Origin: Fimbriimonadaceae bacterium
GTDB taxonomy: Bacteria > Armatimonadota > Fimbriimonadia > Fimbriimonadales > Fimbriimonadaceae
Length of the DNA stretch: 37,686 bases
Reading direction: 5' to 3'
NCBI GenBank assembly: GCA_025455775.1
Contig: JALOLT010000012.1
Span: 1 to 37,686 of the forward strand
Part shown: positions 526-37,686 of the stretch, one piece after another
Position numbering within the stretch: the stretch's first letter is position 1
How the letters are laid out: each line of letters starts with the position of its first letter
Made by a program: the position numbers and the translations under genes
The notes under the pieces: generated by a model
Database searches by the model: none
Told to the model about the DNA's origin: nothing
Seen by the model: only the letters and a program-made list of their open reading frames with translations

Positions 526-1635
526 ATGAGGCTCATCGTAACAGGTGGCGGAACAGGAGGCCATGTCCTCCCGGCGGTGGAGGTCGCTGTCGGGGCGAAA
601 GCTCGCGGGTGGGACGTTCGCTACTTTGGGAGTGAGAGGGGTCAGGAGCGTGGGGCTTGTGAGAGAGCGATGTTGCCTTTTTCCGCCTTTGCGAGCGAGC
701 CTGTTTACCGACCCTTCACTCCGAAAGGTCTCCGCTCCTTGGCCAGGCTGCTGAAGGCAACCCAGTTAGCCCGTGGTTCGCTCGAATCGGTCAGGCCAGA
801 CGTGATCTTCGCCACTGGCGGCTATGCTGCGGCACCCATTTTGATAGCTGCCAAAAAGCTTAAGCTCACGACGATCATTCATGAGCAAAACACTGTTCCT
901 GGCCGTACAAATCGCCTGAACAGCAAACATGCTTTTGCCGTCTGCACAGTTTTCCATGGCACAACCCAGCATTTTCCTGGAGTTAGGGTGGAGCGAACTG
1001 GGATGCCAGTTCGGACGGAAATGAGGATGAGCCACCAGGGGAGGCTGTTGATCGAGTCGCCCTTGGCTTCGGCTGTGCCGATGGTTCTTGTGATGGGAGG
1101 GAGCCAGGGAAGCGCAGCCCTGAATGACCTGGCTCTTTCGACCGCGGTAAGGATGGCAAAGGGGGAGGTTCAGTGGCTCCACTTGACCGGACACGGCCAC
1201 TACGAGAGCACGATGAAGACGATGGCCAAGATGGCAGTGACCAGTGACTACCAGATAAAATCCTACGTCCAGGCGGAAGAGATGGCCTCTGCGATGTTCA
1301 ACTGCTCGGTCGCTGTATGTCGGAGCGGTGCTGGAACCCTTGCTGAGCTGGCAGCGTTTCGAAAGCCAAGCGTCTTGATTCCTTACCCCCATGCTTTTGG
1401 TCAGCACCAGCACACCAACGCCATGGAGTTTGTCGAGATGGGGGCAGCTGATCTTGTTGGCCAAGAGGACATCAGTCCAGCCGATCTGGAGGCGAGGATT
1501 CACAGTTGGAACCTTGATCACGATCGGCGAAAAACAGCGGAGCAGGCCCTGGCTGACTGGGACGTTCCGGATTCGGTTGACCGGATCTTGTCCATCATAA
1601 TGGAGGCTTCTGGGCGCAAGCAGGAAACAGGATGA
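526..1635 (+). CDS. murG: UDP-GlcNAc:lipid I N-acetylglucosaminyltransferase MurG
   Basis: MurG adds GlcNAc to undecaprenyl-pyrophosphoryl-MurNAc-pentapeptide to make lipid II on the inner face of the membrane. The 369-residue length is normal. The N-terminal glycine-rich loop GGGTGGHV is at residues 7-14. HEQNTVPGRTNR, the MGGSQGSAALN loop opening the C-terminal domain, and CRSGAGTLAEL of the UDP-GlcNAc site are all present. The ATG at 526 follows a purine-rich AGGAGAGGG at suitable spacing. Its stop overlaps the murC-ddl start by four bases, which suggests translational coupling. No key motif is missing. Confidence 0.97.
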   Translation: MRLIVTGGGTGGHVLPAVEVAVGAKARGWDVRYFGSERGQERGACERAMLPFSAFASEPVYRPFTPKGLRSLARLLKATQLARGSLESVRPDVIFATGGYAAAPILIAAKKLKLTTIIHEQNTVPGRTNRLNSKHAFAVCTVFHGTTQHFPGVRVERTGMPVRTEMRMSHQGRLLIESPLASAVPMVLVMGGSQGSAALNDLALSTAVRMAKGEVQWLHLTGHGHYESTMKTMAKMAVTSDYQIKSYVQAEEMASAMFNCSVAVCRSGAGTLAELAAFRKPSVLIPYPHAFGQHQHTNAMEFVEMGAADLVGQEDISPADLEARIHSWNLDHDRRKTAEQALADWDVPDSVDRILSIIMEASGRKQETG

Positions 1636-3920
1636 GAACCCGCACCGAGATCGCCAACGACTTCGCCGACCCAGAGCTTCTGAATTCTATCCAGAGGCCA
1701 TTTTTTGTCGGAGTCGGGGGGGCTGGCATGCTGCCCTTGGCCTTGGCTTATCAGAAGAAAGGTCTGGCGGTTGCAGGCTCTGATTCCACACGCTCCGAGA
1801 TTTTGAGTCAGCTCGACCGAGAGGGAGTGGTAAGTGTTAGCCTGGGTCACGACGGTGTGCCTGTTCGAGATCATTGTGCCGACTGTTTGATCCTGACCGA
1901 TGCGATTGACCTACGGACTTCTCCTGAGGTCGCGATGGCACGCGAGCTAGGGATCCCACTCTTTCGCCGGAGCCAGGCTCTTGCCCATTTGCTCAGGGGA
2001 AAGAAAGTGATTGCTGTGACTGGTAGCCACGGAAAGACGACGACGACCGGTTTGCTCGTGGCTGGGATGAGAGAAGCAGGCTTGGATCCGACCTACTTTG
2101 TGGGGGCTGAGGTCCGCGGCTTTGAAAGTGCTCACTTCAATGACTCGGACTGGGCGGTGATCGAAGCCTGCGAAGCCTATGACTCATTGCGAGACTATGA
2201 TCCTGCCTTTGTTATCCTGACTAACTTGGAATTGGATCATGTTGACTTCCACGGAAGTTGGGAAAGTCTTCGCAACACAGTTGTGTCTTTTGTCGATCGA
2301 GTTCCGGAAGAGGGGCGTTTGATCTTCTGTCAGGATGATTCTGGGGCTTGCGAAGTGGCTGAAATGACCAAGGTTGGTTCCCTAGGTGTCACAGTTAGCT
2401 CGTTCTCTCTGGAGTGCTTGCGTCTGCCTGGTGACCATAACCGGAAGAATGCATCTTTGGCTCTCGCTCTGGGAGAAACGCTTGGGTTCGGGGAATCTTT
2501 TGCCCAAGGTGTCTATGGATTTTTGGGAGCGCGGAGCCGTTTAGAGCCGATTGCCGTCTTGCGGCGGGGGGACGAGGTCGTGGATTGCGTGATGGACTAC
2601 GCCCATCATCCTACAGAGATCGAGGCAAGTCTTCAGGCATTGCGTGAGCAGTATCCGGGGCGCAGGATCGTGGTCGCCTATCAGCCTCACCTTTACTCGC
2701 GAACTGCTGACCTGATTCCAGAGTTTGCGTCGGCCCTCTCTTTGGCGGATGTTGCTGTGTTGACAGACATATATCCTGCCAGAGAAAAGCCAATGCCTGG
2801 CGTCAGCTCGCTTCGGATTGTCCAACTTTTGAGGTGCGATCATCACTACGTCCCTTCTCGCTTTGTCTTGCCCCGGTTCTTAGCTAAGCTGGTTCAACAC
2901 CCTGATGTTTTGGTGGTGATGGGGGCAGGAAACATAGACGAAACTCCTGGTTCTTTTGTGAAAGAGGCTCATCGCTTGGGTTGGCTCTCGGCGGACTTGT
3001 CCGAACCTTACGTCCCTGAGATCATGGTGGTTGTTGGGGGGCGCAGCGCGGAGCGCGAGGTGAGCCTGAACAGTGGCGAAGCTGTTTATCAGTCATTGCT
3101 CCGGCTAGGTTACAAAGCGAGGAAGGTTGATCTGAGCGAGGCAGCTCTCGGAGACGGACTCTTGACTTTTGTGAGTGGTGTGAATCGGCCAGACCTTGCT
3201 GTACTGATGGTTCATGGACCGGGGGAAGAAGATGGTTCTGTGCAGGGATTCTTGGATTACATGGGCATACCTTATACTGGTTCCAGTCTCCAGGCAAGTG
3301 CAATCGCTATTGATAAGGGTTTGACAAAGAAGCTGTACCAAGAGGCTGGGTTGCCTGTGCCTCGTGGGGTGACTTTGAGGCGGGGGGATCCCCTGCCGAT
3401 CTACACAGAACCGGTTGTGGTGAAGCCAAATAGCCAAGGTTCGACGGTAGGGTTGTCTTTTGTCTCTCGCCAAGAGGAGCTGGAATCGGCGGTGGAGTTG
3501 GCTTTTCTCTATGACGAAGAGGTCGTGGTGGAACAGTGGGTCAGGGGGATTGAGATCAGTGTTCCAGTCTTTGGGGATCGGGCGATGCCGATCATTGAGA
3601 TCGTTCCAACGACTCACTATGACTTCGCGGCGAAGTATGTTCCTGGGGCGACGCTTGAGATTTGCCCGGCCCGTCTTTCAGAGGCAACGACGGGCAAAGC
3701 ACAAGAATTGGCGTTGAAGGCCCATAAAACCCTGAGGGCTCGGGGGATCACGAGAACGGATATGATCGTTGTTGGTGAGGAATTGGTTATACTAGAGACC
3801 AACACCCTGCCAGGAATGACCCCCACCAGCTTGGTTCCTCAGAGCGCCAAGTCTGCTGGGATGAGTTTTGATGACCTCGTCGACTGGATCGTGAAGGATG
3901 CCCTCACCCAATCCACCTAG
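1632..3920 (+). CDS. murC-ddl: Fused MurC (UDP-MurNAc-L-alanine ligase) and Ddl (D-Ala-D-Ala ligase)
   Basis: One 762-residue frame carries two consecutive cytoplasmic peptidoglycan-precursor enzymes. Residues about 22-455 are MurC: Rossmann motif GVGGAGM at 27-33, P-loop GSHGKTTTT at 131-139, the EACEAYDS and LDHVDFH central motifs near 178-207, and AHHPTEIEASL near 324-334. Residues about 463-760 are Ddl: VVVGGRSAEREVSLNSG at the N-terminus, HGPGEEDGSVQGF near 528-540, VVVKPNSQGSTVGLS in the ATP-grasp domain, and ETNTLPGMTPTSLVP near 722-736 with the metal-binding Glu and Asn. No stop or frameshift separates them. Such MurC-Ddl fusions are known in chlamydiae, so the architecture has precedent. 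A murB gene, often found between murC and ddl or ftsQ, is absent here. Confidence 0.95.
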   Translation: MRTRTEIANDFADPELLNSIQRPFFVGVGGAGMLPLALAYQKKGLAVAGSDSTRSEILSQLDREGVVSVSLGHDGVPVRDHCADCLILTDAIDLRTSPEVAMARELGIPLFRRSQALAHLLRGKKVIAVTGSHGKTTTTGLLVAGMREAGLDPTYFVGAEVRGFESAHFNDSDWAVIEACEAYDSLRDYDPAFVILTNLELDHVDFHGSWESLRNTVVSFVDRVPEEGRLIFCQDDSGACEVAEMTKVGSLGVTVSSFSLECLRLPGDHNRKNASLALALGETLGFGESFAQGVYGFLGARSRLEPIAVLRRGDEVVDCVMDYAHHPTEIEASLQALREQYPGRRIVVAYQPHLYSRTADLIPEFASALSLADVAVLTDIYPAREKPMPGVSSLRIVQLLRCDHHYVPSRFVLPRFLAKLVQHPDVLVVMGAGNIDETPGSFVKEAHRLGWLSADLSEPYVPEIMVVVGGRSAEREVSLNSGEAVYQSLLRLGYKARKVDLSEAALGDGLLTFVSGVNRPDLAVLMVHGPGEEDGSVQGFLDYMGIPYTGSSLQASAIAIDKGLTKKLYQEAGLPVPRGVTLRRGDPLPIYTEPVVVKPNSQGSTVGLSFVSRQEELESAVELAFLYDEEVVVEQWVRGIEISVPVFGDRAMPIIEIVPTTHYDFAAKYVPGATLEICPARLSEATTGKAQELALKAHKTLRARGITRTDMIVVGEELVILETNTLPGMTPTSLVPQSAKSAGMSFDDLVDWIVKDALTQST

Positions 3921-8882: not shown

Positions 8883-9794
8883 TTAAGCCTTTTGGGCTTT
8901 GCGGCGACGCTTCGCAGCAAGGGCACCGAGTGCCAAGATCGAGAGGGTCATGGGCTCTGGCACTGCGCCGAACTGGGACTCAAGGAAGTCGCCGTTCAGG
9001 GCAGCATCACCTTGGTTGAAGGCCCAACTCGTGTTGTTGAAGGAGCCGCTGTAGACATAAAATCCGTGGAGGGATGAGTCGCTGCCTGAGTTCTCGAAAA
9101 TTCCCTTGAACCCGCCGGTGATAGTGACTGGGTGGTTTGTGCTCACGAACAGGTTGTGGGTTGGATCCCAATTGGCGGTCAGGCCGCTCGCAGTGAAGCT
9201 GATCGAGTAGTTGATGAAGGTACCACTGGTCAGGCTTCCGGCTCCTCCGACTCCTCCGTGCCAAAGCCGGGCGGACTGGTTGGCGAACCCAGGGCCAGCG
9301 TTCTCGCCAGTGGCAACGAGGCTAAATGTCGAGCCGTTCGCAACGCCTGGGGCGAGGGTAGACCACACTCCAGACATACTAGAGATCGTGGTTGCTCCAT
9401 CGTCATACATCTGGATGAAGCCAGTGTTCGTGTTGTTGGGGTTGCCCCAGCCGCTGTAGTAGCGATTTCCGGCTGGGTCATCCTTTGGCAAGCTGTTGGT
9501 GTTGTCTTCTGTCGTGTAGTACCAGGCGGTTAAGAAAGCAGCAAAGTTGCTTCCGTACGTCGGGACGCCATCAACAAAGTAAGTCCCAAGGTCTCGGCGA
9601 TTGTTCGTCGCGGCATCGGCGAGGACATGGTTGCTGACGACGTTCGTTCCAGACTGGGCATCAGCAAGCGTTGCGTAGCGACTCATGGTCATGTCGTAGG
9701 ACATCAAGTCGGTGGCAGCGAAGAATGGAGTCGCAAAAGTTGACGTGGCCAGGGCGAATAGGCCGGTGATCAGGGTGATGCGTGAAACGCTCAT
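8883..9794 (-). CDS. PEP-CTERM domain secreted protein
   Basis: A 303-residue exported protein of unknown function. It has an N-terminal signal peptide (hydrophobic stretch with Ala-rich end near residue 22) and a low-charge, Asn/Thr/Gly-rich body typical of beta-sandwich surface proteins. The C-terminal sorting signal is VPEPMTLSILALGALAAKRRRK: a PEP motif, a hydrophobic helix and a basic tail. In other bacteria PEP-CTERM signals are processed by exosortase, and these proteins are usually surface or biofilm components. No exosortase gene lies in this window. A GAGAGGA ribosome binding site precedes the ATG. The gene has its own terminator and a 199-base gap before the next gene upstream, so it is probably monocistronic. 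I do not recognise the body domain. Confidence 0.87.
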   Translation of the reverse strand: MSVSRITLITGLFALATSTFATPFFAATDLMSYDMTMSRYATLADAQSGTNVVSNHVLADAATNNRRDLGTYFVDGVPTYGSNFAAFLTAWYYTTEDNTNSLPKDDPAGNRYYSGWGNPNNTNTGFIQMYDDGATTISSMSGVWSTLAPGVANGSTFSLVATGENAGPGFANQSARLWHGGVGGAGSLTSGTFINYSISFTASGLTANWDPTHNLFVSTNHPVTITGGFKGIFENSGSDSSLHGFYVYSGSFNNTSWAFNQGDAALNGDFLESQFGAVPEPMTLSILALGALAAKRRRKAQKA

Positions 9795-11032: not shown

Positions 11033-12169
11033 CTAGCGAATTGCCGCTTCGCTTTCGAAATCGAAGATGTGAATCTTGTCGAGGTCGATGGCGAATTCGG
11101 TTTCCACTCCAGATTCGATGCGGCTGGCAGGGTCGAGGGTGGCGGTCATGGTCTTTTCACCCAGGACGATGTAGGCGGTATCTTCCGCTCCCAGCTTTTC
11201 CAGAACGTCTACTTTTGCCTTAAAGGTGTTGTCGGCGGTCACTGGGACGGGAACTCCGTTATGAGAATCGTAGATATCCTCTGGGCGGATCCCGAACCAG
11301 ACTTTCTTACCGTTATGGCTTTTGGCCGGGTGGCTTTCGGGAAGGGCGAAGGTAGCTTCTTTGCTGACGAACTTGCCGCCTTCGATCTTGCCTTCCAAGA
11401 AGTTCATGGGAGGTGCCCCGACGAAACCAGCGACAAACTTGTTGGCTGGTTTGTTATAGACGGTTTCTGGTTCATCGACCTGTTGGAGCACTCCATTGAA
11501 CATGACGGCGATTCGCTGGCCCATGGTCATGGCTTCCACTTGGTCGTGGGTGACATAGATCGTGGTGATACCGAGATCCCTGTGGAGACGAATCAACTCG
11601 GCTCTGGTTTGGATTCTGAGTTTCGCGTCCAAGTTCGAGAGAGGCTCGTCCATCAAAAAGACCTTAGGCTTTCGAACGATTGCGCGGCCGAGAGCGACGC
11701 GCTGGCGTTGGCCCCCCGAGAGTTCCTTGGGTTTTCTGGCCAGGAGATGCCCGATGTCGAGCATTTTGGCTGCGTCTTGAACCCGGTTGTCGATGTCCTG
11801 CTTAATGCGCTTAGCTTCTCCGGCGTTGAACACCTGCCAGAAGAACCCTTTTAGTTCGCGGAGGCGCAGGCCGAAAGCGATGTTGTCGTAGACCGACATG
11901 TGGGGGTAGAGAGCGTAGTTCTGAAACACCATCGCGATGTCGCGATCCTTAGGGTGGACGTCATTGACTCTAGTTTCCCCGATAAAGAGGTCGCCCTCGG
12001 ACGATTCCTCAAGTCCCGCGATCATGCGGAGAGCCGTTGTCTTGCCGCAGCCCGAGGGACCGACGAGCACCATGAACTCGCTATCACGGATCTCAAGGTT
12101 CAAGTCATTGACGGCTTTCACGTCTTTCCCAAAGATCTTCGTGATGTTTTTAAAAGTGACTCCGGCCAA
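11033..12169 (-). CDS. MalK/UgpC/MsmK-type sugar ABC transporter ATP-binding protein
   Basis: A 378-residue CUT1-type ATPase that would power a carbohydrate importer from the cytoplasmic side. Walker A GPSGCGKTT is at 37-45, the Q-loop is VFQNYALYPHMSV near 81-93, the signature LSGGQ at 150-154, Walker B VFLMDEP at 170-176 and the H-loop VTHDQ follows. A C-terminal OB-fold regulatory region (from about 240) includes WFGIRPEDI. A short insertion (KGFFWQVFNAGEAKR, about 107-121) lies between the Q-loop and the signature. The start is TTG, supported by AAGGAG eight bases upstream. No permease or binding protein is adjacent, so it may serve several importers as MsmK does; the MalF/MalG-like pair at 35731-37686 is a candidate partner. 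Confidence 0.93.
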   Translation of the reverse strand: MAGVTFKNITKIFGKDVKAVNDLNLEIRDSEFMVLVGPSGCGKTTALRMIAGLEESSEGDLFIGETRVNDVHPKDRDIAMVFQNYALYPHMSVYDNIAFGLRLRELKGFFWQVFNAGEAKRIKQDIDNRVQDAAKMLDIGHLLARKPKELSGGQRQRVALGRAIVRKPKVFLMDEPLSNLDAKLRIQTRAELIRLHRDLGITTIYVTHDQVEAMTMGQRIAVMFNGVLQQVDEPETVYNKPANKFVAGFVGAPPMNFLEGKIEGGKFVSKEATFALPESHPAKSHNGKKVWFGIRPEDIYDSHNGVPVPVTADNTFKAKVDVLEKLGAEDTAYIVLGEKTMTATLDPASRIESGVETEFAIDLDKIHIFDFESEAAIR

Positions 12170-28841: not shown

Positions 28842-29675
28842 ATGAACCTTAAAAGCATCGTAGTTTTCGCAGCATTGACCCTGTCATGTTTCGCACTTGC
28901 CGACACAGTTTCGGTTGACTTTGAAAGTTATCCTGATGGCCCAATCACCAACGGCTACGATGGATGGCAAATCACTAACCCTAGCTGGGATCAGCAGGTG
29001 GTGAGTACGAGCCCAATCACTGGAAACAAAAGCTGGAGAACGAGCCAACGCGTCGCTTCAGGAAGTTTTGGAGACCAGCCTTACAGTCCGGCCTTGATGG
29101 ATAAAGTGAGTGAGACAGGTGCGTTTCGCCGATTCGATGCCAGCTGGAAGTGGAGTCCTTTGGTTGGTGGAAAAAACGGGGAAGGCGTGACAGTCTCGAT
29201 CGACAATGGTACTGGCCAACGTGGCAACTGGATTCGCCTGGAAAACAACGGCGGTTTGGATACGAGCTGGCGGATCTACTTATTTGACTTCAATGGAATT
29301 TCCAACACGTTTCCGTCAGTTACTCTCATGGAGAACATCTCAGCCGGTACCGTCTTGGATATGAAGTTTGATATGACATTTAATCCCGGAGCGAATAACG
29401 ATGTCTGGAACATGTACATCAATAACACTTTGATGTACACAGGCGTGGGTTGGGAAGACTACTTCCGGAACTTTGCTCCAACCTATGGACCGACTCCCGT
29501 TACCTATGATAGACTCCTGTTCCGCCAGTCTCCGACTGCGATTGCCAACGCTGCCGGCGTCTTGATCGACGATATCCAGTACACCTCGTCTGTTCCTGAG
29601 CCTGCAACGCTGACAATTCTGGCTTTGGCAGGTCTCTTGAAGCGGCGTCGAGCTGCAAAGAAACAGGCATCGTAA
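28842..29675 (+). CDS. PEP-CTERM domain secreted protein (second)
   Basis: A 277-residue exported protein. The signal peptide covers about residues 1-20 (VVFAALTLSCFALADT). The body begins VSVDFESYPDGPITNGYDGWQI, a start common in lectin- or jelly-roll-like PEP-CTERM proteins (FESY..G followed by a W-rich beta sandwich). The C-terminal tail is SVPEPATLTILALAGLLKRRRAAK with the PEP motif, short hydrophobic segment and basic end. The function is unknown; a glycan- or surface-associated role is inference. AGGAGA stands before the ATG and a strong hairpin follows the stop, so it is probably monocistronic. It is not obviously a paralogue of the protein at 8883-9794 beyond the sorting tail. Confidence 0.86.
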   Translation: MNLKSIVVFAALTLSCFALADTVSVDFESYPDGPITNGYDGWQITNPSWDQQVVSTSPITGNKSWRTSQRVASGSFGDQPYSPALMDKVSETGAFRRFDASWKWSPLVGGKNGEGVTVSIDNGTGQRGNWIRLENNGGLDTSWRIYLFDFNGISNTFPSVTLMENISAGTVLDMKFDMTFNPGANNDVWNMYINNTLMYTGVGWEDYFRNFAPTYGPTPVTYDRLLFRQSPTAIANAAGVLIDDIQYTSSVPEPATLTILALAGLLKRRRAAKKQAS

Positions 29676-30814: not shown

Positions 30815-32986
30815 TCAGGGGAGTTTGACGACGACCCTGGCTGGTTGGCCAGGCTTTGTTTCGATGGTTGCCGTAGCAGTAGCGCTGCCCCGGCGAATTG
30901 TGACCTTATGGGTGCCGTAGAAGGCCCTGGTTGAGGCTTGGCCAGCGGAGTTGCTGCGAAGGCTGGCCTTCGTCCACCATTCTCGCTTCACCATGTCTTC
31001 CCAAACCTTCGCGGCTGGGCGAGGCGACCAGTCCAGATTGAAGAGAGCAGCAGTGTCGCCCCGCCAATGAGCCCCCGCCCAGAATCCCCACAGAATGACT
31101 GCTTCGACAGAGGGGTGACTAAAGCAGGCAGTGACGAAATCCCTGGTGTGAGCAGCGTGGGCTGTGTCATCCCAGAGCGTCACGTCGTACTCGGTGATCT
31201 CAATAGGCAGCTTGAACTGAGCCGTTTCATCCAGGATTTCGAGGACGCGCTGAGTGGGAGTCAGGGGAGTACCGACGTGGCCTTGCAGACCGAGCATGTC
31301 GATTTTTGCCCCAGCGGCAAGTTGCTCTCGCACGAGTCGGAAGAAGGCTTGTTGGTGACCCTTTCCGGCTTGACTCTCTTCTGTGACATTGAAGTCGTTG
31401 TAGACTGTAAGGGCCTTGGGGTCAGTCTCCTTTGCCAGCTGATAAGCCATGCGAAACTCCGACCAGCCGAGGGCTTGCCAAAGGCTGTTTTCAGTAACGG
31501 CTTCGTTCACAACATCCCAAGCGTAGAGCCGACCCTTGAAGAGATTCGCACCAGTCTTGACTCGGTCGCGAACCGCTTGGCGTTTTTGTTCGAGGGTGAG
31601 GGACTTGAGATTTCCAGGCAGATACTGATCTGAACCCCACACAAGGTTGTGTCCCCTGGTGCGGAACCCTTGTTGCTCTAGCCAGTCAAGGGCACGGCGC
31701 GTCTTGGCAAGTCCTTCTGGGGTGTCGTTGCCAGGGTTGCCCCATTTCATGTCGTTCTCGAAGACGGCAGTATTAAAGAGCCGCTTGAGGTTGGCGCGGT
31801 ACTGGGCCGCATCTTCGCTTGTCCCATTGATGAGGTCTCCCACCACGGCAGTTCCGAATCGGAAGTGGTGCTTCTGCTGTTCAACTTGAATTGTAGCGTT
31901 CGGGACTGGCCTGCCGTTACGATCCTGGACGATGATGGTGATGTCGCCTTTGCGGATTCGTTCGATGCGAGCGAGAGCCGGGGCGCGCCAGGTTTCAGGG
32001 TTTGCTTGCCCTCCGTAGGGATCCACTTTGATCCCGAGCTCGCGAGGGGGAGTTCGTCCAAAGTTTTGGATTTGGATGTTCTCGACTTCAACATCCGTCT
32101 TCCCGTGACCTAAAAAGAGGGTGAATTGGCCTTGGGTTGCATCCCAGCCTGAACTGGCAGGGCCTGCCAGAATCACATCCCTCCATTCGGGAGTCAGGAC
32201 AACTGATTCACTGAGCACTTTTGTGTGGGGCTCAGCATTGAGTTCGATGTTCGCTGTGACTCGAGAGCGATTGGCGCTTCTCATCTTGGCGCGGAAGACA
32301 AGGGTGTCACCTGGCAGGATCACCCCGTTCAGGGGGATTTGCACGTTGTGTTCCCATGGTCTAGCGTCTGGGTTTGGGTTTGCCGTAATCCGGATCCCTT
32401 GTCCGGTAGATGCAACTTGAGCACTGCGCAGACGCCAGGCTTCGGGACTGGGCAGGGCACCAAGCAGTGTCGTGGGGTTTTGCCTCGTGGGGCGATTCGC
32501 AGAAAGCGATGAGAGCCGTACGTTGGCGAGTTCAACTGTTCCCGGGGCATGGTTCAGCGTGAAGGTGACCTGGACTCCTCTTTCAGGGTAGTTCAGGTTT
32601 GCGGAGGCGATCACAGAATACTCTTGCCAGTCGGGGGTGAGGGTAGGGCCGAGTGAGCCGAGGGTTTGCCATCGTCCCTCGTACTCTTGCACAAAGGCTT
32701 CGATCTTAACGCGATCTTGGCTGCGGGCAAAGAAGCGGAGGCTAAAGACGTCACCCCTTTTCACTGGTTGAGCGAGAAGTTGGCGGAACTGGACGTCCCA
32801 GGTGTTACCGCCCCTTCCTTCGACCGAGATCGAGACACCTGGGCCGTGGGGAGTTGAAATCCGCTTGGTTTGGGATGGGAAATCCCAACCTCCGGCGGTG
32901 GAACCAAAGTCGCCGTTTACGAGGAGGTTCGTCGGAGATGACGCTTGTGCCACGACGAGTGATGCCAGTAGGGTCGTGATGATCAT
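30815..32986 (-). CDS. Secreted GH10 endo-1,4-beta-xylanase with N-terminal carbohydrate-binding modules
   Basis: A 723-residue extracellular enzyme. Residues 1-15 are a short signal peptide. Two successive CBM_4_9-like beta sandwiches occupy about 20-160 (NLLVNGDFGSTAGGW start) and 182-310. A GH10 catalytic domain follows at about 365-665: HHFRFGTAV at 373-381, NDMKWGN at 411-417, GHNLVWGSDQYLP, the acid/base Glu495 in WDVVNEA, and the nucleophile Glu599 in ITEYDV. WGFWAGAHWRG near 633-643 completes the barrel. A short beta-rich tail follows (675-723, VTIRRGSATATATIE). GH10 enzymes cut internal xylan linkages. The start overlaps the preceding lipoprotein gene by four bases, so it is the last gene of the lacI unit. 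Confidence 0.93.
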   Translation of the reverse strand: MIITTLLASLVVAQASSPTNLLVNGDFGSTAGGWDFPSQTKRISTPHGPGVSISVEGRGGNTWDVQFRQLLAQPVKRGDVFSLRFFARSQDRVKIEAFVQEYEGRWQTLGSLGPTLTPDWQEYSVIASANLNYPERGVQVTFTLNHAPGTVELANVRLSSLSANRPTRQNPTTLLGALPSPEAWRLRSAQVASTGQGIRITANPNPDARPWEHNVQIPLNGVILPGDTLVFRAKMRSANRSRVTANIELNAEPHTKVLSESVVLTPEWRDVILAGPASSGWDATQGQFTLFLGHGKTDVEVENIQIQNFGRTPPRELGIKVDPYGGQANPETWRAPALARIERIRKGDITIIVQDRNGRPVPNATIQVEQQKHHFRFGTAVVGDLINGTSEDAAQYRANLKRLFNTAVFENDMKWGNPGNDTPEGLAKTRRALDWLEQQGFRTRGHNLVWGSDQYLPGNLKSLTLEQKRQAVRDRVKTGANLFKGRLYAWDVVNEAVTENSLWQALGWSEFRMAYQLAKETDPKALTVYNDFNVTEESQAGKGHQQAFFRLVREQLAAGAKIDMLGLQGHVGTPLTPTQRVLEILDETAQFKLPIEITEYDVTLWDDTAHAAHTRDFVTACFSHPSVEAVILWGFWAGAHWRGDTAALFNLDWSPRPAAKVWEDMVKREWWTKASLRSNSAGQASTRAFYGTHKVTIRRGSATATATIETKPGQPARVVVKLP

Positions 32987-33459
32987 TTTGTGTCTTTGGG
33001 GCTGGCGGTTTTGGAAGAGTCTTCTGATTTGTTCTGGGAATCCCTCACGTAGGTGAGGGGCTCTTTGACCCGTCTGTGTTTCAAAAGTAAGGTTCCGTCC
33101 TCTTTGAGGGTGTAGCCGTAGACCATGGGAGTTCCTGGTACATCAAGTTGGAGGTTAGTGGATTCGACGGACCATTTCCCCATTTGGGTAGTGGTGCCTC
33201 CTCCCCCTCTGGCAGGTGCCTCGTTTACCAGTTCGAGAGTCCCGTCTGCCCGGAGATCCATTTTGCTTTTGCCGTCGGGGGTCTTCCAGGCTCCCGCCAG
33301 TTTCGGGTCGGTCGTTCCTGGCTTGAGTATGATGCCGGGCGATGAGTCGATTTCGCTTGTTGTATCTGCGGTTGGGGTGCAAGCGGTTAATAAAACGAAA
33401 AGGGCCAAGCCCCCGAACAGGGGCTTGGCTGATGCACTTTTGAAGATGATAGACATCAT
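32983..33459 (-). CDS. Small lipoprotein of unknown function (158 aa)
   Basis: The N-terminus MMSIIFKSASAKPLFGGLALFVLLTACTPTADTT ends its hydrophobic segment with the lipobox LTAC, so Cys is the expected lipid-modified residue. The mature part has a WKTPDGKSKMDLRADGTLELV stretch and paired beta strands (MGKWSVESTNLQLDV; YGYTLKEDGTLLLKHRR), resembling a small lipocalin-like or DUF beta sandwich for which I have no firm family. It is predicted to face the periplasm or surface. Two adjacent ATGs (33459, 33456) are possible; a longer frame exists but starts inside the gene upstream. It ends overlapping the xylanase start by four bases. Confidence 0.75.
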   Translation of the reverse strand: MMSIIFKSASAKPLFGGLALFVLLTACTPTADTTSEIDSSPGIILKPGTTDPKLAGAWKTPDGKSKMDLRADGTLELVNEAPARGGGGTTTQMGKWSVESTNLQLDVPGTPMVYGYTLKEDGTLLLKHRRVKEPLTYVRDSQNKSEDSSKTASPKDTK

Positions 33460-33484
33460 CGAACGAGTTTTTTTGGGTAGGTTC

Positions 33485-33703
33485 TTACTTGGTTTGCGCT
33501 GCTGTCTTAGCATTTGACTCAGCAATTTTCTGAGCGTTCTGCATTCTCGACTTAGCTTGCTCTGGGATGTTAGGGTCGTTCATATCGACCTTGTTTTCCA
33601 CTGGAGGAGGCAGTTCACCTGGCCCTTCGTCACCAGCGTTGCATCCGGTGAGAAAGGCAGCAGCAAGCGTTGCAGCGGCAAGAAGAAGAAGAGTCTTTTT
33701 CAT
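33485..33703 (-). CDS. Small lipoprotein of unknown function (72 aa)
   Basis: MKKTLLLLAAATLAAAFLTGCNAGDEGPGELPPP shows a textbook lipoprotein signal with lipobox LTGC. The mature part is only about 52 residues, acidic then helical (IPEQAKSRMQNAQKIAESNAKTAAQTK). A longer frame from 33865 would run into the prepilin-like gene, so the ATG at 33703 is preferred. It begins 19 bases after the prepilin-like stop and ends 25 bases before the next lipoprotein gene, in keeping with one operon. Confidence 0.78.
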   Translation of the reverse strand: MKKTLLLLAAATLAAAFLTGCNAGDEGPGELPPPVENKVDMNDPNIPEQAKSRMQNAQKIAESNAKTAAQTK

Positions 33704-33722
33704 GTTAATGAGTGATCCGTTG

Positions 33723-34607
33723 TCAGAATCCAGCGCAAGGGTTTCCTGCCGTAAACATCCAGCTCCAATCGGAATCTGGCGACCCTTGTGGGAAGTGGCT
33801 CCAACCGGGATAGATGTCTCGGCACCAGTTGAGGGCGCCTTTCTTGACGTTCTTAGCGTGGCCATCTGCCCAGGTGACGTTGGCGGTGTCAGTGTATCGG
33901 TATCGAGGCATAGCGCAGCCGACGTTTCCTGAGGCTTGCCAGTTGCAGTTACCGAGGTCGTTATCCCAGCGGGCGCCAGAGGTTGGGCCAGTGAAGACAG
34001 GAGGCCATTGGGCTCCGCCGTGGAACCACCAGTCTGTTTCCAGCGCGTTGGCTCCTGTGTTGCCCCAGTCTGGGTTTACTCCAATGGTCGTGATCATCAA
34101 GACTCCGGCTGGCTTTTCGAGGGCAGTTTGGGTTCTCGATGGACGAGGAGTTCCTGGGCCGTAGGGTGGCTCGTTGTACTGGGCTCCTTGCCACCAATCG
34201 TTGATCATCTCAGGGAAGAGACCACTGTGAGCACCGTAGCTGTTGACTGCGTTTGCTGGCGCAGATGGGCTTCGGAAGATTCCGCCGCGGGCTCTGGTTT
34301 GGCCGCCATACCAGTCATCTCTTTCCCCACCATTTTTGATGTAGGGGAGAATGAAGTCTCGCCAGGTTTGCCAGGCGTTGTTTGGGTTGGGAGGAGCCAT
34401 GAGATAGCTTCCTCGGGGGAACATGTCATCGTAGTCAGCCATGTAGATCATGGTTGCTGTCCCCTGTTGTTTCAGGTTCGAGAGATCTTGGGTCTTTTTG
34501 GCTGCTGCTTTGGCTTGCGCAAATACAGGGAAGAGGATCGCCGCGAGGATCGCGATGATCGCAATGACGACGAGTAGTTCAATGAGCGTAAAAGCTCTAG
34601 TTTTCAT
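33723..34607 (-). CDS. Prepilin-type N-terminal cleavage/methylation domain protein (DUF1559-like)
   Basis: A 294-residue protein with a type IV pilin/pseudopilin leader: MKTRAFTLIELLVVIAIIAI, with Phe6 as the expected first mature residue and Glu10 at position 5. The residue before the cleavage site is Ala rather than the usual Gly. The long globular part is rich in Trp, Asn and Gly and ends with TANVTWADGHAKNV, the WADGH signature of the H-X9-DG proteins common in planctomycetes and armatimonads. It is probably a secreted surface or pseudopilin-like protein. The ATG overlaps the lacI stop by one base (TGATG), so the regulator and this protein are coupled. Confidence 0.87.
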   Translation of the reverse strand: MKTRAFTLIELLVVIAIIAILAAILFPVFAQAKAAAKKTQDLSNLKQQGTATMIYMADYDDMFPRGSYLMAPPNPNNAWQTWRDFILPYIKNGGERDDWYGGQTRARGGIFRSPSAPANAVNSYGAHSGLFPEMINDWWQGAQYNEPPYGPGTPRPSRTQTALEKPAGVLMITTIGVNPDWGNTGANALETDWWFHGGAQWPPVFTGPTSGARWDNDLGNCNWQASGNVGCAMPRYRYTDTANVTWADGHAKNVKKGALNWCRDIYPGWSHFPQGSPDSDWSWMFTAGNPCAGF

Positions 34608-35629
34608 CAGATAGGCTCCTTCGTTGGTGCTGTCGACTCTCTTACTATGAGGGTCGTTTGTATAAGTTCTGGTCGGGGGACGGAGTTCCCTTCAGCAATT
34701 TGAACCACTGCTTCGAGGGCTTTCCGGCCGAGATTTTCGAGAGGCTGCCTCACAGTTGTGAGAGCAGGGGCACCTAAATTTGGCACTTCGGTATCGTCGA
34801 ATCCGACGACACTCAGGTCAGTTGGGACGCTGAGTCCAAGGGTTCTGGCAGCGTCGATCGTTGCTCTTGCCATCACGTCGTTGCTGGCAAAGATAGCCGT
34901 TGGCTTGTCGGGTAACTGGAGCATATCCAGAGCGACCGAGTAGGAAACTTGGTACTCGAAGTTACCGGACTGAACCCAATGGTCAACAACTGGCAGATTT
35001 CGATCTCTCAAGGCGTCTTTGAAGGCCCGATCTCGTTCTAATCCATCATAGAGGCTCAGCCTTCCTGTGATATGTCCAATTTTAGTGTGACCAAGATTAG
35101 CCAGGTGATTGACCGCCATCTCGACGCCGTGTCGGTTGTCTACGGAGTAACAGAACCGATCCTCGGAGGTCTCACCTAAGAGGATGGCGTAAGGGAAGTT
35201 CCGTCGGTCAAGAGTTTGGAAGATCTCTTCTTGGTTCTCAGGGGCAAAGATGATCACTCCGTCGACTCGCCCGTCGAGGATCATGGAGAGGAGGCCCTGA
35301 TCCTCGAGCCGATCCGAGTGGGTGTAGATCAAAAGATCCTTGCCTTGTTCTTGACAAGCGTTCGAGATGCCTACGATGACTTCGTGGATGGCGGGGGATC
35401 GCATGATATCAAACGTCATGTGGCTGTGAATGAATCCGATGACGTCAGACTTTTTGCGCTTGAGGGAGCGTGCCAGGTGGCGGGGATAGTAGTCGAGATC
35501 CTTCGCAGCGTCCAAGATGCGCTGTTTTAGTTGGGGAGCTACAGGCTTCGGGCCGTTGTTCAGTGCGTAGCTCACTGTACTAACGGAAACCCCGACTTTT
35601 CGCGCAATGTCCTTAATTGATGCTGTCAT
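34607..35629 (-). CDS. LacI-family transcriptional regulator
   Basis: A 340-residue repressor-type protein. The N-terminal helix-turn-helix (TASIKDIARKVGVSVSTVSYALN, residues 2-24) is followed by the hinge helix LARSLKRKKSDVIGF. The C-terminal periplasmic-binding-protein-like domain has DGVIIFAPEN, HITGRLSLYDGLERDRAF, PTAIFASNDVMARATI and DLSVVGFDDTEVPNLGAPALTTVRQPLE. It probably senses a sugar. It sits at the head of the prepilin-lipoprotein-xylanase unit with a promoter and operator-like sequence just upstream, so it is expected to autoregulate the whole set and perhaps the ABC permeases upstream. Confidence 0.95.
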   Translation of the reverse strand: MTASIKDIARKVGVSVSTVSYALNNGPKPVAPQLKQRILDAAKDLDYYPRHLARSLKRKKSDVIGFIHSHMTFDIMRSPAIHEVIVGISNACQEQGKDLLIYTHSDRLEDQGLLSMILDGRVDGVIIFAPENQEEIFQTLDRRNFPYAILLGETSEDRFCYSVDNRHGVEMAVNHLANLGHTKIGHITGRLSLYDGLERDRAFKDALRDRNLPVVDHWVQSGNFEYQVSYSVALDMLQLPDKPTAIFASNDVMARATIDAARTLGLSVPTDLSVVGFDDTEVPNLGAPALTTVRQPLENLGRKALEAVVQIAEGNSVPRPELIQTTLIVRESTAPTKEPI

Positions 35630-35665
35630 TGACCTCTCCGCCGTTGGAGAAACTATTCGACTTCA

Positions 35666-35693
35666 TTATACATTGATGTCAAAACATTTCAAG
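35666..35693 (-). promoter_or_regulatory. Promoter with overlapping operator-like sequence for lacI operon
   Basis: Read on the - strand, TTGAAA (35688-35693) and TATAAT (35666-35671) are separated by 16 bases, a good sigma-70 type promoter. It lies 37 bases before the lacI ATG. TTGAAATGTTTTGA (35680-35693) is a near palindrome that covers the -35, the usual place for a LacI-type repressor. The operator reading is inference; the promoter match is clear. Confidence 0.65.
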
Positions 35694-35730: not shown

Positions 35731-36687
35731 CTACTTTCCGCCCGTCATCACGATGCCGCGGACGAAGAATTTTTGCCCCACGACGAAGAGGATGACGAGG
35801 GGAATGAGAACCAGGATCGAGGCAGCCATGAGAAGATCCCACTGGGCACTATTGAGTGTTTGGTAAGTGCGGAGCCCGAGCTCGAGGGTTTGCTTCTTGG
35901 GGTCGTTGAGGTAGAGGAGGGGGCCCATGAAGTCCCGCCAGTTGTAGATGAGGGCGAAGATTCCGACGGTCGCGAGGGCTGGCCCAGAAAGAGGCATGAT
36001 GATGCGCCAAAAGATCGTGGCGTGACTGGCCCCGTCGATGACAGCTGCTTCGTCGAGTTCACGGGGGATCCCCATGTAGAACTGGCGCAGCAAGAAGATG
36101 TTGAAGGCACCTCCGCCAAACCAAGCGGGAACCCAGAGGGGAAGGAAGGAATCGACCCACGAGAGGTATTTGTACATCACGTAGGTAGGGATCATGGTGA
36201 CGATGCCAGGCAGCATCATCGTGGCCAGAAGGACGATAAAGAGGCCATCTCGACCCCGGAAGTTGAGCCTGGCAAAGGCATAGGCTGCCAGGGCAGAGGT
36301 AATGAGAACGCCAACTGTACTGAGAACAGCGATGACCGTTGTATTCCGGAAGAAAAGAAGAAACGGAGCGTTCTCGTTGGTAAGAACCTTGACGTAGTTC
36401 TGAAGGGAAGGCTCAGTTGGCCAAGACCAGAGAGGCGTTCCGGCGATGTCTGCCGTCGACTTGAGGGACATCATGAGGGTTACCCAAAACGGAATGAGAA
36501 ACACGATGGATCCGAGGCAGAGGAGGATGAAGAGAACGACTTTCCAGAACTTTTCGATCCTGGCTTGTTGGGCGCGGTTGATCCTGGCCGGGGCAGGCTT
36601 GGCAACCTTGCTCGGCTCGGTTTGGGGGTTTTTAGTTTCCACGGGAACCGTGGTTGATGGATCGCTAGCTCTTGGCGTCTGCTTCAT
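35731..36687 (-). CDS. Carbohydrate ABC transporter permease, MalG-like
   Basis: A 318-residue inner-membrane permease of a CUT1 sugar importer with about six helices after a Pro/Lys-rich cytoplasmic N-terminus (about 1-45). The EAA loop ELDEAAVIDGASHATIFWRIIMPLSGPAL (near 215-243) is the site that touches the ATPase. MMSLKSTADIAGTPLWSWP and PTYVMYKYLSWVDSFLPLWVPAWF are typical of MalG-type subunits. It overlaps the MalF-like gene by 23 bases. No ATPase or binding-protein gene follows; the MalK-type ATPase near 11 kb could serve it. Confidence 0.94.
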   Translation of the reverse strand: MKQTPRASDPSTTVPVETKNPQTEPSKVAKPAPARINRAQQARIEKFWKVVLFILLCLGSIVFLIPFWVTLMMSLKSTADIAGTPLWSWPTEPSLQNYVKVLTNENAPFLLFFRNTTVIAVLSTVGVLITSALAAYAFARLNFRGRDGLFIVLLATMMLPGIVTMIPTYVMYKYLSWVDSFLPLWVPAWFGGGAFNIFLLRQFYMGIPRELDEAAVIDGASHATIFWRIIMPLSGPALATVGIFALIYNWRDFMGPLLYLNDPKKQTLELGLRTYQTLNSAQWDLLMAASILVLIPLVILFVVGQKFFVRGIVMTGGK

Positions 36688-37686
36688 AGTAAACCCACTT
36701 GTTGGCTTTGAGCTGGAGGAGAGTAAAGGCGAGGATCAGGAAGAACAAGATCCACGCAAGGGAACTGGCGTAGCCCATCCGCAAGCTTTCGAAGGCTTGG
36801 CGATACAGGTGGAGCATAAAGAAGAGAGAGGCATCGTTTGGACCTCCTCCGGTCATGATAAAGGCTTGGGTGAAGGTCTGAAATGAACCGATGAAGCCAG
36901 TGATTAGGCAGAAGAAGAGGGCTGGAGTGATGAGTGGGAGGGTGACACTCTTGAACTTATGCCAAGGCCCTGCTCCATCGAGGGTTGCTGCTTCGTAGTA
37001 GTGGGCGGGAACTCCTTGGAGACCAGCGAGGATGATGATCATCGCTCCGCCGACACCCCAGAGACCCATGATGACAAGGGCGGGGAGGACACCGACTTCG
37101 CTATTGAGCCAGTTTATTTTTTCGTCTGGCCTTCCGGCCCAAGCACTGAGGAGATCCCCGAGAGGCGGAATGGAGTACAGAACGCCATTGATAAGGCCGT
37201 CGTTCGGGTTGAAGACTCTCATCCAGATGAGGGAAGCTGCCACAGCACTGGCAAGCGAAGGCAGGTAGAAGAAGGCTCGGAAGAGAGGGATGCCTTTCAC
37301 CTTCACATTCAAAAGCAGCGCCATCAGGAGGGCAGTGACGAGACCAGCCGGGACGCTGACGATCGTGAAAAGGATCGTGACTCGCAAGCTAATGAGTACC
37401 CTGGTATCGGTGGTAAAGGCCTCGATATAGTTTTCGAATCCTCGCCATCGAGCTGGTTGAATGATGTCCCAGTCGGCGAAGCTCATGAGGAGCGAGAAGA
37501 TCATCGGCCCGACGGTGAAGATCACGATTCCGAAGAGCCAAGGGAAGATGAACCAGTAGGCAGCCCGGCTCTCTTGCTTTTTGCGGAGGCTATAGCGTTG
37601 GCCGAATTCTTTGCCATAGATGGCGTAGATGAGCGCTCCGAGAATCGCGAGGGCAACCCCGAATCCGACTCCCCATGGAAATGGGT
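36665..37686 (-). CDS. Carbohydrate ABC transporter permease, MalF-like (5' partial)
   Basis: The coding frame stays open from the stop at 36665 to the window edge, so the N-terminus is outside. At least 339 residues are present. An additional N-terminal helix (VGFGVALAILGALIYAIYG) and a basic loop lead into YWFIFPWLFGIVIFTVGPMIF, the usual MalF-type first core helix. The GTG at 37525 is therefore not the start. The EAA region near VPAHYYEAATLDGAGPWHKFKSVTLPLITPALFF is intact, and FQTFTQAFIMTGGGPNDAS is characteristic of MalF-type subunits. The substrate is unknown; xylo-oligosaccharide is a reasonable inference from the neighbouring xylanase. Confidence 0.93.
   Translation of the reverse strand, partial: PFPWGVGFGVALAILGALIYAIYGKEFGQRYSLRKKQESRAAYWFIFPWLFGIVIFTVGPMIFSLLMSFADWDIIQPARWRGFENYIEAFTTDTRVLISLRVTILFTIVSVPAGLVTALLMALLLNVKVKGIPLFRAFFYLPSLASAVAASLIWMRVFNPNDGLINGVLYSIPPLGDLLSAWAGRPDEKINWLNSEVGVLPALVIMGLWGVGGAMIIILAGLQGVPAHYYEAATLDGAGPWHKFKSVTLPLITPALFFCLITGFIGSFQTFTQAFIMTGGGPNDASLFFMLHLYRQAFESLRMGYASSLAWILFFLILAFTLLQLKANKWVYYEADAKS

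Follow-up and report, generated by a model that had tools for sequence, protein, structure and literature searches.

The window, meaning the whole stretch of 37,686 nucleotides that was analysed, carries a compact set of five genes in the order LacI-type regulator, prepilin, lipoprotein 1, lipoprotein 2 and GH10 enzyme, all on the minus strand (Table 1). The regulator and prepilin genes share a 1-base TGATG overlap, gaps of 19 and 25 bases follow the prepilin and lipoprotein 1 genes, respectively, and the lipoprotein 2 and GH10 genes overlap by 4 bases. This packing had been described in a sequence-only reading of the same DNA, whose coordinates, strand, overlaps and gaps proved exact and whose assignments to the LacI, prepilin and GH10 families agree with Pfam. 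Omitted from that reading were two ABC sugar permease genes directly upstream of the regulator gene on the same strand. For the permease adjoining LacI (35731-36687), UgpE is the best NCBIfam model with a score under the equivalog cut-off. The other permease gene is truncated by the end of the contig (C4), at position 37686.

Table 1. Features of the LacI-prepilin-GH10 locus and of the adjoining genes in the window.
Feature	Position	Strand	Basis
LacI/GalR-family repressor, 340 aa (HTH and sugar-binding domain)	34607-35629	-	PF00356, PF13377
Prepilin-type protein, 294 aa	33723-34607	-	PF07963, PF07596/DUF1559, TIGR02532
Small lipoprotein 1, 72 aa	33485-33703	-	lipobox LTGC, PPP motif
Lipoprotein 2, 158 aa, predicted lipocalin-like eight-strand barrel	32983-33459	-	orthologs, AlphaFold2
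GH10 endo-xylanase, 723 aa	30815-32986	-	PF00331
Candidate sigma-70 promoter, TTGAAA-16-TATAAT	35665-35692	-	consensus scan, 11/12
ABC sugar permease, MalG/UgpE type	35731-36687	-	PF00528, 69.6 bits
ABC sugar permease, MalF/UgpA type, running past the window and contig end	36665-37684	-	PF00528, 40.9 bits

The LacI gene, the two permease genes and the GH10 gene on one strand unite a regulator, an ABC sugar transporter and a hydrolase in one locus, the combination that defines a Gram-positive-type polysaccharide utilization locus (PUL); no gene for a sugar-binding protein is seen, as the contig ends within the second permease gene. None of the seven genes encodes SusC or SusD, the pair required of a Sus-type PUL. 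A gene for a MalK/UgpC-type ABC ATPase (11033-12169, minus strand) lies far away from all permeases of the window, and its product could serve the sugar permeases at 35731-37684 as a shared ATPase. The window also encodes a secreted PHB-depolymerase-type esterase (PF10503; 9994-10911, minus strand) that is possibly relevant to xylan side chains, a 762-aa fusion of MurC and D-Ala-D-Ala ligase in a division and cell-wall cluster (1632-3920, plus strand) and two proteins (8883-9794, minus strand; 28842-29675, plus strand) with PEP-CTERM-like tails that score just under the Pfam cut-off.

The regulator is a member of the LacI/GalR family, matching PF00356 with 50 bits and PF13377 with 129 bits. 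The single promoter that had been proposed for the set has a candidate in the site at 35692-35665, yet sites of this quality occur at chance frequency (3 found in the scan, 2.7 expected), so that it is the position of the site that speaks for it. The operator-like site proposed along with it did not hold up, since no near-perfect palindrome lies upstream of the window LacI gene. In the orthologous loci of two relatives, Armatimonadetes bacterium 55-13 and the MAG D1_MAG_00021, two copies of ATTTA-N4-TAAAT precede the LacI gene, 126 and 157 bases apart; the motif is absent elsewhere in both 14.7-kb loci (about 0.01 expected), is also absent from the window and likely constitutes an autoregulatory operator pair in these relatives. 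Whereas the LacI proteins of the two relatives are 60% identical to each other, the window LacI is only 29% identical to its counterpart in the best ortholog locus; it comes from a different lineage and has thus been replaced or has strongly diverged. Three observations support sugar control of the set, as proposed in the sequence-only reading: the family of the regulator, the paired palindromes in the two relatives and the comparison with other regulators given below.

The prepilin has the cleavage and methylation motif of type IV prepilin-like proteins (AFTLIE, with Glu5) at its N-terminus and the motif WADGHAK at its C-terminus. It scores over the cut-off of PF07963 (30.8 bits; Pfam) and TIGR02532 (29.1 bits; NCBIfam), and its match to PF07596/DUF1559 (SBP_bac_10), with 26.1 bits against a gathering score of 23.3 bits, covers only positions 2-64 of 268. 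It falls below the cut-off of TIGR04294, which describes H-X9-DG-CTERM prepilins (12.5 versus 19 bits), and far below those of the GspG/H/I/J equivalog models (30.6 versus 88.85 bits for GspG, lower for the others). Solved pilins match the protein at the N-terminus only, and the pilin N-terminus, Glu5 among its residues, does not vary across the 17 aligned members. A structure prediction from 17 aligned relatives was poor (pLDDT 47) and gave a usable N-terminal helix only, so that it does not bear on the presence of a carbohydrate-binding fold. In the genome that carries the window (2.99 Mb in 170 contigs) 54 matches to this prepilin are present, about 80% of which have neither a LacI nor a GntR neighbour, hence the family must serve other roles too. 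Assembly ATPases (11 domain matches) and two secretins are encoded elsewhere in this genome, outside the locus, so that the prepilins could be assembled in trans.

The enzyme at the end of the set consists of a signal peptide, two weakly CBM4-like modules and a GH10 domain (residues 372-660). Its earlier designation as a GH10 xylanase is borne out by the match to PF00331 (162.5 bits), by the presence of both catalytic-type glutamates, Glu 495 in WDVVNE and Glu 599 in ITE, and by its closest solved relative, a beta-xylanase (PDB 7d88, E 2.9e-58). The carbohydrate-binding module also ascribed to it is hinted at by remote similarity to two solved CBM4 modules (E 0.001 and 0.1), but no Pfam CBM is found in the N-terminal part of the protein.

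Conservation of the gene order in Armatimonadota, which the sequence-only reading had named as a check, was found in two other genera: 55-13 and D1_MAG_00021 both keep the order LacI, prepilin, lipoprotein 1 and lipoprotein 2. Genome collections were queried with an alignment of three prepilin sequences; an alignment of eight prepilins gave no conserved stretch. Identity to the window amounts to 61-63% for the prepilins, 32-37% for lipoprotein 1 and 32-36% for lipoprotein 2. The conserved set is followed by GH10 in the window, by GH52 and GH8 in 55-13 and by GH52, GH67 and GH8 in D1_MAG_00021. GH10 enzymes are endo-xylanases, GH52 enzymes beta-xylosidases and GH67 enzymes alpha-glucuronidases, and GH8 includes reducing-end xylose-releasing exo-oligoxylanases, all of these activities acting on xylan. 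Since all four families fit xylan, the prepilin subtype follows the substrate and not one enzyme, and since the prepilin remains about 60% identical while LacI and the enzymes differ, the pilin is the constant part of the set. Other prepilin subtypes go with GH13, PF10091, GH5 or others. With an assurance that we would place midway between doubt and conviction, we read the locus as a xylan polysaccharide-utilization operon with a dedicated pilin that is induced by the substrate and captures xylan.

In the sequence-only reading, the prepilin and the lipoproteins were suggested to help display or secrete the xylanase. The prepilin would then be a cargo-specific pseudopilin in a type II secretion pseudopilus that exports the co-encoded xylanase, and the lipoproteins would assist secretion or tether the enzyme. 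Such a role is in line with the pseudopilin-type N-terminus, the two secretins and the several GspE/PilB-type ATPases that the genome encodes, the signal peptides on the GH10 and GH8 enzymes and the 4-base overlap of the lipoprotein 2 and GH10 genes. However, no obvious signal peptide can be seen by eye in the GH52 and GH67 enzymes that accompany the same prepilin subtype in the two ortholog loci, which makes a pure secretion role of the pilin less likely and fits better with substrate binding. The scores far below the cut-offs of the GspG/H/I/J models likewise speak against a cargo-specific pseudopilin, and to our knowledge pseudopilins are not multiplied per cargo in any described system. 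Help in display or secretion was thus not established, and we consider export of the xylanase by the prepilin unlikely in comparison with the substrate-directed role of a xylan-capturing pilin.

Homologs of lipoprotein 1 with the PPP motif occupy the same place in other loci, and a protein of 54-97 aa comes after the prepilin in about 30 of 44 related sets, being either a lipoprotein or a protein in which a single membrane helix at the N-terminus is followed by a short tail. In a pattern count, a small anchored protein follows 36 of 60 prepilins, a number that includes prepilins without a regulator, versus 59 of 579 other genes (Fisher 6e-18). As the two anchor types interchange, the small partner probably acts on the outer side of the inner membrane. 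A small lipoprotein also follows prepilins that have no LacI or GntR neighbour (loci L059, L062, L069, L070, L075, L077 and L080 of genome G000), and prepilin and small anchored protein thus form a module of their own. Lipoprotein 2, for which the AlphaFold2 model reaches about 90 pLDDT over most of residues 56-139, is predicted to be a lipocalin-like barrel, with a Bacteroides lipocalin-family protein as its best PDB fold match (E 3e-4). When used as a marker in 21 relatives, it gave sequence matches in only two other genomes, which indicates that it is specific to the xylan subtype and not part of the general module. Within the region encoding its signal peptide, a strong 11-pair hairpin with a T-rich stretch behind it (33404-33429, minus strand) could be an internal attenuator.

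The single membrane helix of the small partner in many loci would also suit a different arrangement, in which the prepilin never enters a filament and is instead a one-helix membrane protein whose ectodomain binds periplasmic sugars and either delivers these to the ABC importer or takes part in signalling to the LacI control. PF07596 indeed bears the name SBP_bac_10, work on Rhodopirellula referred to it as solute-binding (PMC2754498), and ABC permeases are found next door and in several related operons. Yet a plain membrane anchor would not need the Glu5 pilin N-terminus that all 17 aligned members retain, and SBP-like sequences fused to permeases in several such loci (by eye) mean that a binding protein is already at hand. 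We therefore regard a prepilin acting outside of filaments as rather improbable and retain the reading of a filament subunit that captures xylan.

The pairing of LacI and prepilin genes extends well beyond the window. Among the 11 LacI genes of the genome, 7 are immediately followed by a prepilin gene in the same orientation and one more has a GH13 gene in between, whereas about 0.2 direct pairs would be expected for 54 prepilins among an assumed 2800 genes (binomial p 3e-10). Other regulators of this genome are paired with prepilins in 2/4 (GntR) and 1/6 (AraC) cases, and none of the 14 TetR (0/3) and response-regulator (0/11) genes has a prepilin downstream; chance adjacency was rejected on the basis of the excess of LacI pairs and of these two zero controls. 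The enzymes following the regulator-prepilin pairs of the genome include GH10, GH5 with CBM4_9, PF10091, GH13, a Sortilin/BNR (GH74-like) protein, a weak GH42 match and, after a GntR, GH2. In loci L060 (contig C41), L074 (contig C30) and L147, the regulator in front of the prepilin is of the GntR family instead of LacI; the next clear gene is an S15 peptidase on C41 and GH2 on C30, and GH2-, GH5- and GH1-like genes are seen by eye in SZAS-8.

A survey of 21 genomes of the order, 13 of which have LacI, yielded 63 usable LacI genes, and adjacency in these relatives was counted by the position of the prepilin motif, as length-based gene calling picks antisense ORFs in the G+C-rich relatives. Directly before a prepilin stand 31 of them and 14 have one gene in between, while 17 have no prepilin nearby and 1 lies at a contig end. 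In 10 of the 14 cases with an intervening gene, which is a GH13 enzyme in the genome of the window and appears alike by eye in other genomes, the prepilin lies about 2.1 kb downstream, once per genome, in ten genera and two families. Of 52 LacI genes sampled in other families of the phylum, 13 form direct pairs, with one more (L194) missed by the motif; for 12 of the 52, the prepilin is the next motif, mostly 260-480 bases on. The pairing thereby recurs in nine or more further families of Armatimonadota; several of these pairs are followed by PF10091 or GH5 enzymes, and the order LacI-prepilin-PF10091 is found in several families. Single genomes of other families show very large LacI expansions (95 matches in G046, 49 in G061 and 56 in G075).

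That the packing is incidental, with prepilins so numerous (54 in 2.99 Mb) that some come to lie beside LacI and glycoside hydrolase genes, is barely credible in view of the excess of direct pairs over expectation, the order kept across genera and families despite diverged sequences and the lack of pairing for TetR and response regulators. The distances between LacI proteins and between prepilins correlate (Mantel r 0.42, 0/999), yet the LacI genes in front of some closely related prepilins are unrelated to each other. Vertical inheritance of a single ancestral pair was rejected as the sole cause, because the window LacI is of another lineage than that of its orthologs. The gene set noted in the sequence-only reading is hence confirmed in a stronger form than was claimed, as it belongs to a phylum-wide family of sugar-regulated operons for a pilin and polysaccharide enzymes.

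For the xylan operon of the window, the following course of events can be proposed. As long as xylan-derived sugar is absent, LacI would repress its own operon, and binding of the sugar to LacI would lead to joint production of the repressor, the prepilin, the two lipoproteins and the xylanase. The prepilin would be cleaved by the general prepilin peptidase of the cell and join, as a substrate-specific subunit, the filaments of a housekeeping type IV pilus or type II secretion machinery encoded elsewhere, with the small anchored protein possibly helping on the outer side of the inner membrane. Xylan could then be held or captured at the surface by the exposed domain of the pilin, GH10 would cut it there, and the adjoining ABC importer would take up the oligosaccharides.

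Armatimonadota thus probably produce a separate pilin for every polysaccharide on which they feed. A wider proposal, which we put forward as conceivable but doubtful, is that polysaccharide uptake in Armatimonadota, and perhaps in further phyla with many DUF1559 prepilins, proceeds via substrate-specific pilins, each with its own sugar repressor and small anchored protein, as a pilus-based counterpart of SusD; if true, this would partly explain the tens of prepilins per genome. The linkage provides a concrete assignment for a subset of DUF1559-type prepilins, in which a single sugar repressor, pilin, small partner and polysaccharide belong together, and makes the substrate of each pilin predictable from the adjoining enzymes. 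In Planctomycetes, the DUF1559 prepilins rank with the largest protein families, and the little-studied Armatimonadota are rich in similar prepilins, so that polysaccharide capture by such pilins would, if borne out, be a route outside the Sus paradigm.

No report of a set of LacI, prepilin or pseudopilin and glycoside hydrolase was found in the open-access literature, though several described systems share parts of it. In Planctopirus limnophila, the 68 DUF1559 paralogs form the biggest paralog group, given as being of unknown function in the accessible part of that report (PMC10632474), and the genome of Fimbriimonas ginsengisoli contains 79 PulG-like genes, for which attachment was suggested (PMC4072686). 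These proteins are of the same kind as the window prepilin and likewise number tens of paralogs per genome, but a linkage to LacI or glycoside hydrolases is not described in the accessible parts of the two papers (PMC4072686; PMC10632474). Labelled dextran binds to pili-like fibres in Planctomycetes, so that a polysaccharide is held by pilus-like fibres before uptake, as proposed here, albeit in another phylum and, as far as the available text goes, with no sugar-regulated gene set described (PMC5394234). Type IV pili are also cited as promoting adhesion to chitin in the available part of a comparative study of Planctomycetota CAZymes.

The type II secretion pseudopilins GspG-K share the N-terminal cleavage and methylation motif with the window prepilin, which in contrast lies outside a gsp operon, stays below the cut-offs of their models and belongs to a family of many copies, a subset of which each have their own regulator. 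The Sus-type PULs of Bacteroidota can be seen as following an analogous logic, with one substrate-specific surface protein per polysaccharide encoded together with regulator and enzymes, but the window has a pilin-type protein in place of SusC/SusD and its importer is of the ABC type. Closest in composition are the Gram-positive-type PULs or CAZyme clusters, in which a LacI or AraC regulator, an ABC importer or sugar permeases and an endo-acting hydrolase are likewise devoted to one polysaccharide in one cluster, and to which the window adds the prepilin and the small anchored proteins between regulator and enzyme. The type of locus is therefore akin to known PUL-like clusters, and the capture of glycans by a pilin would go beyond them.
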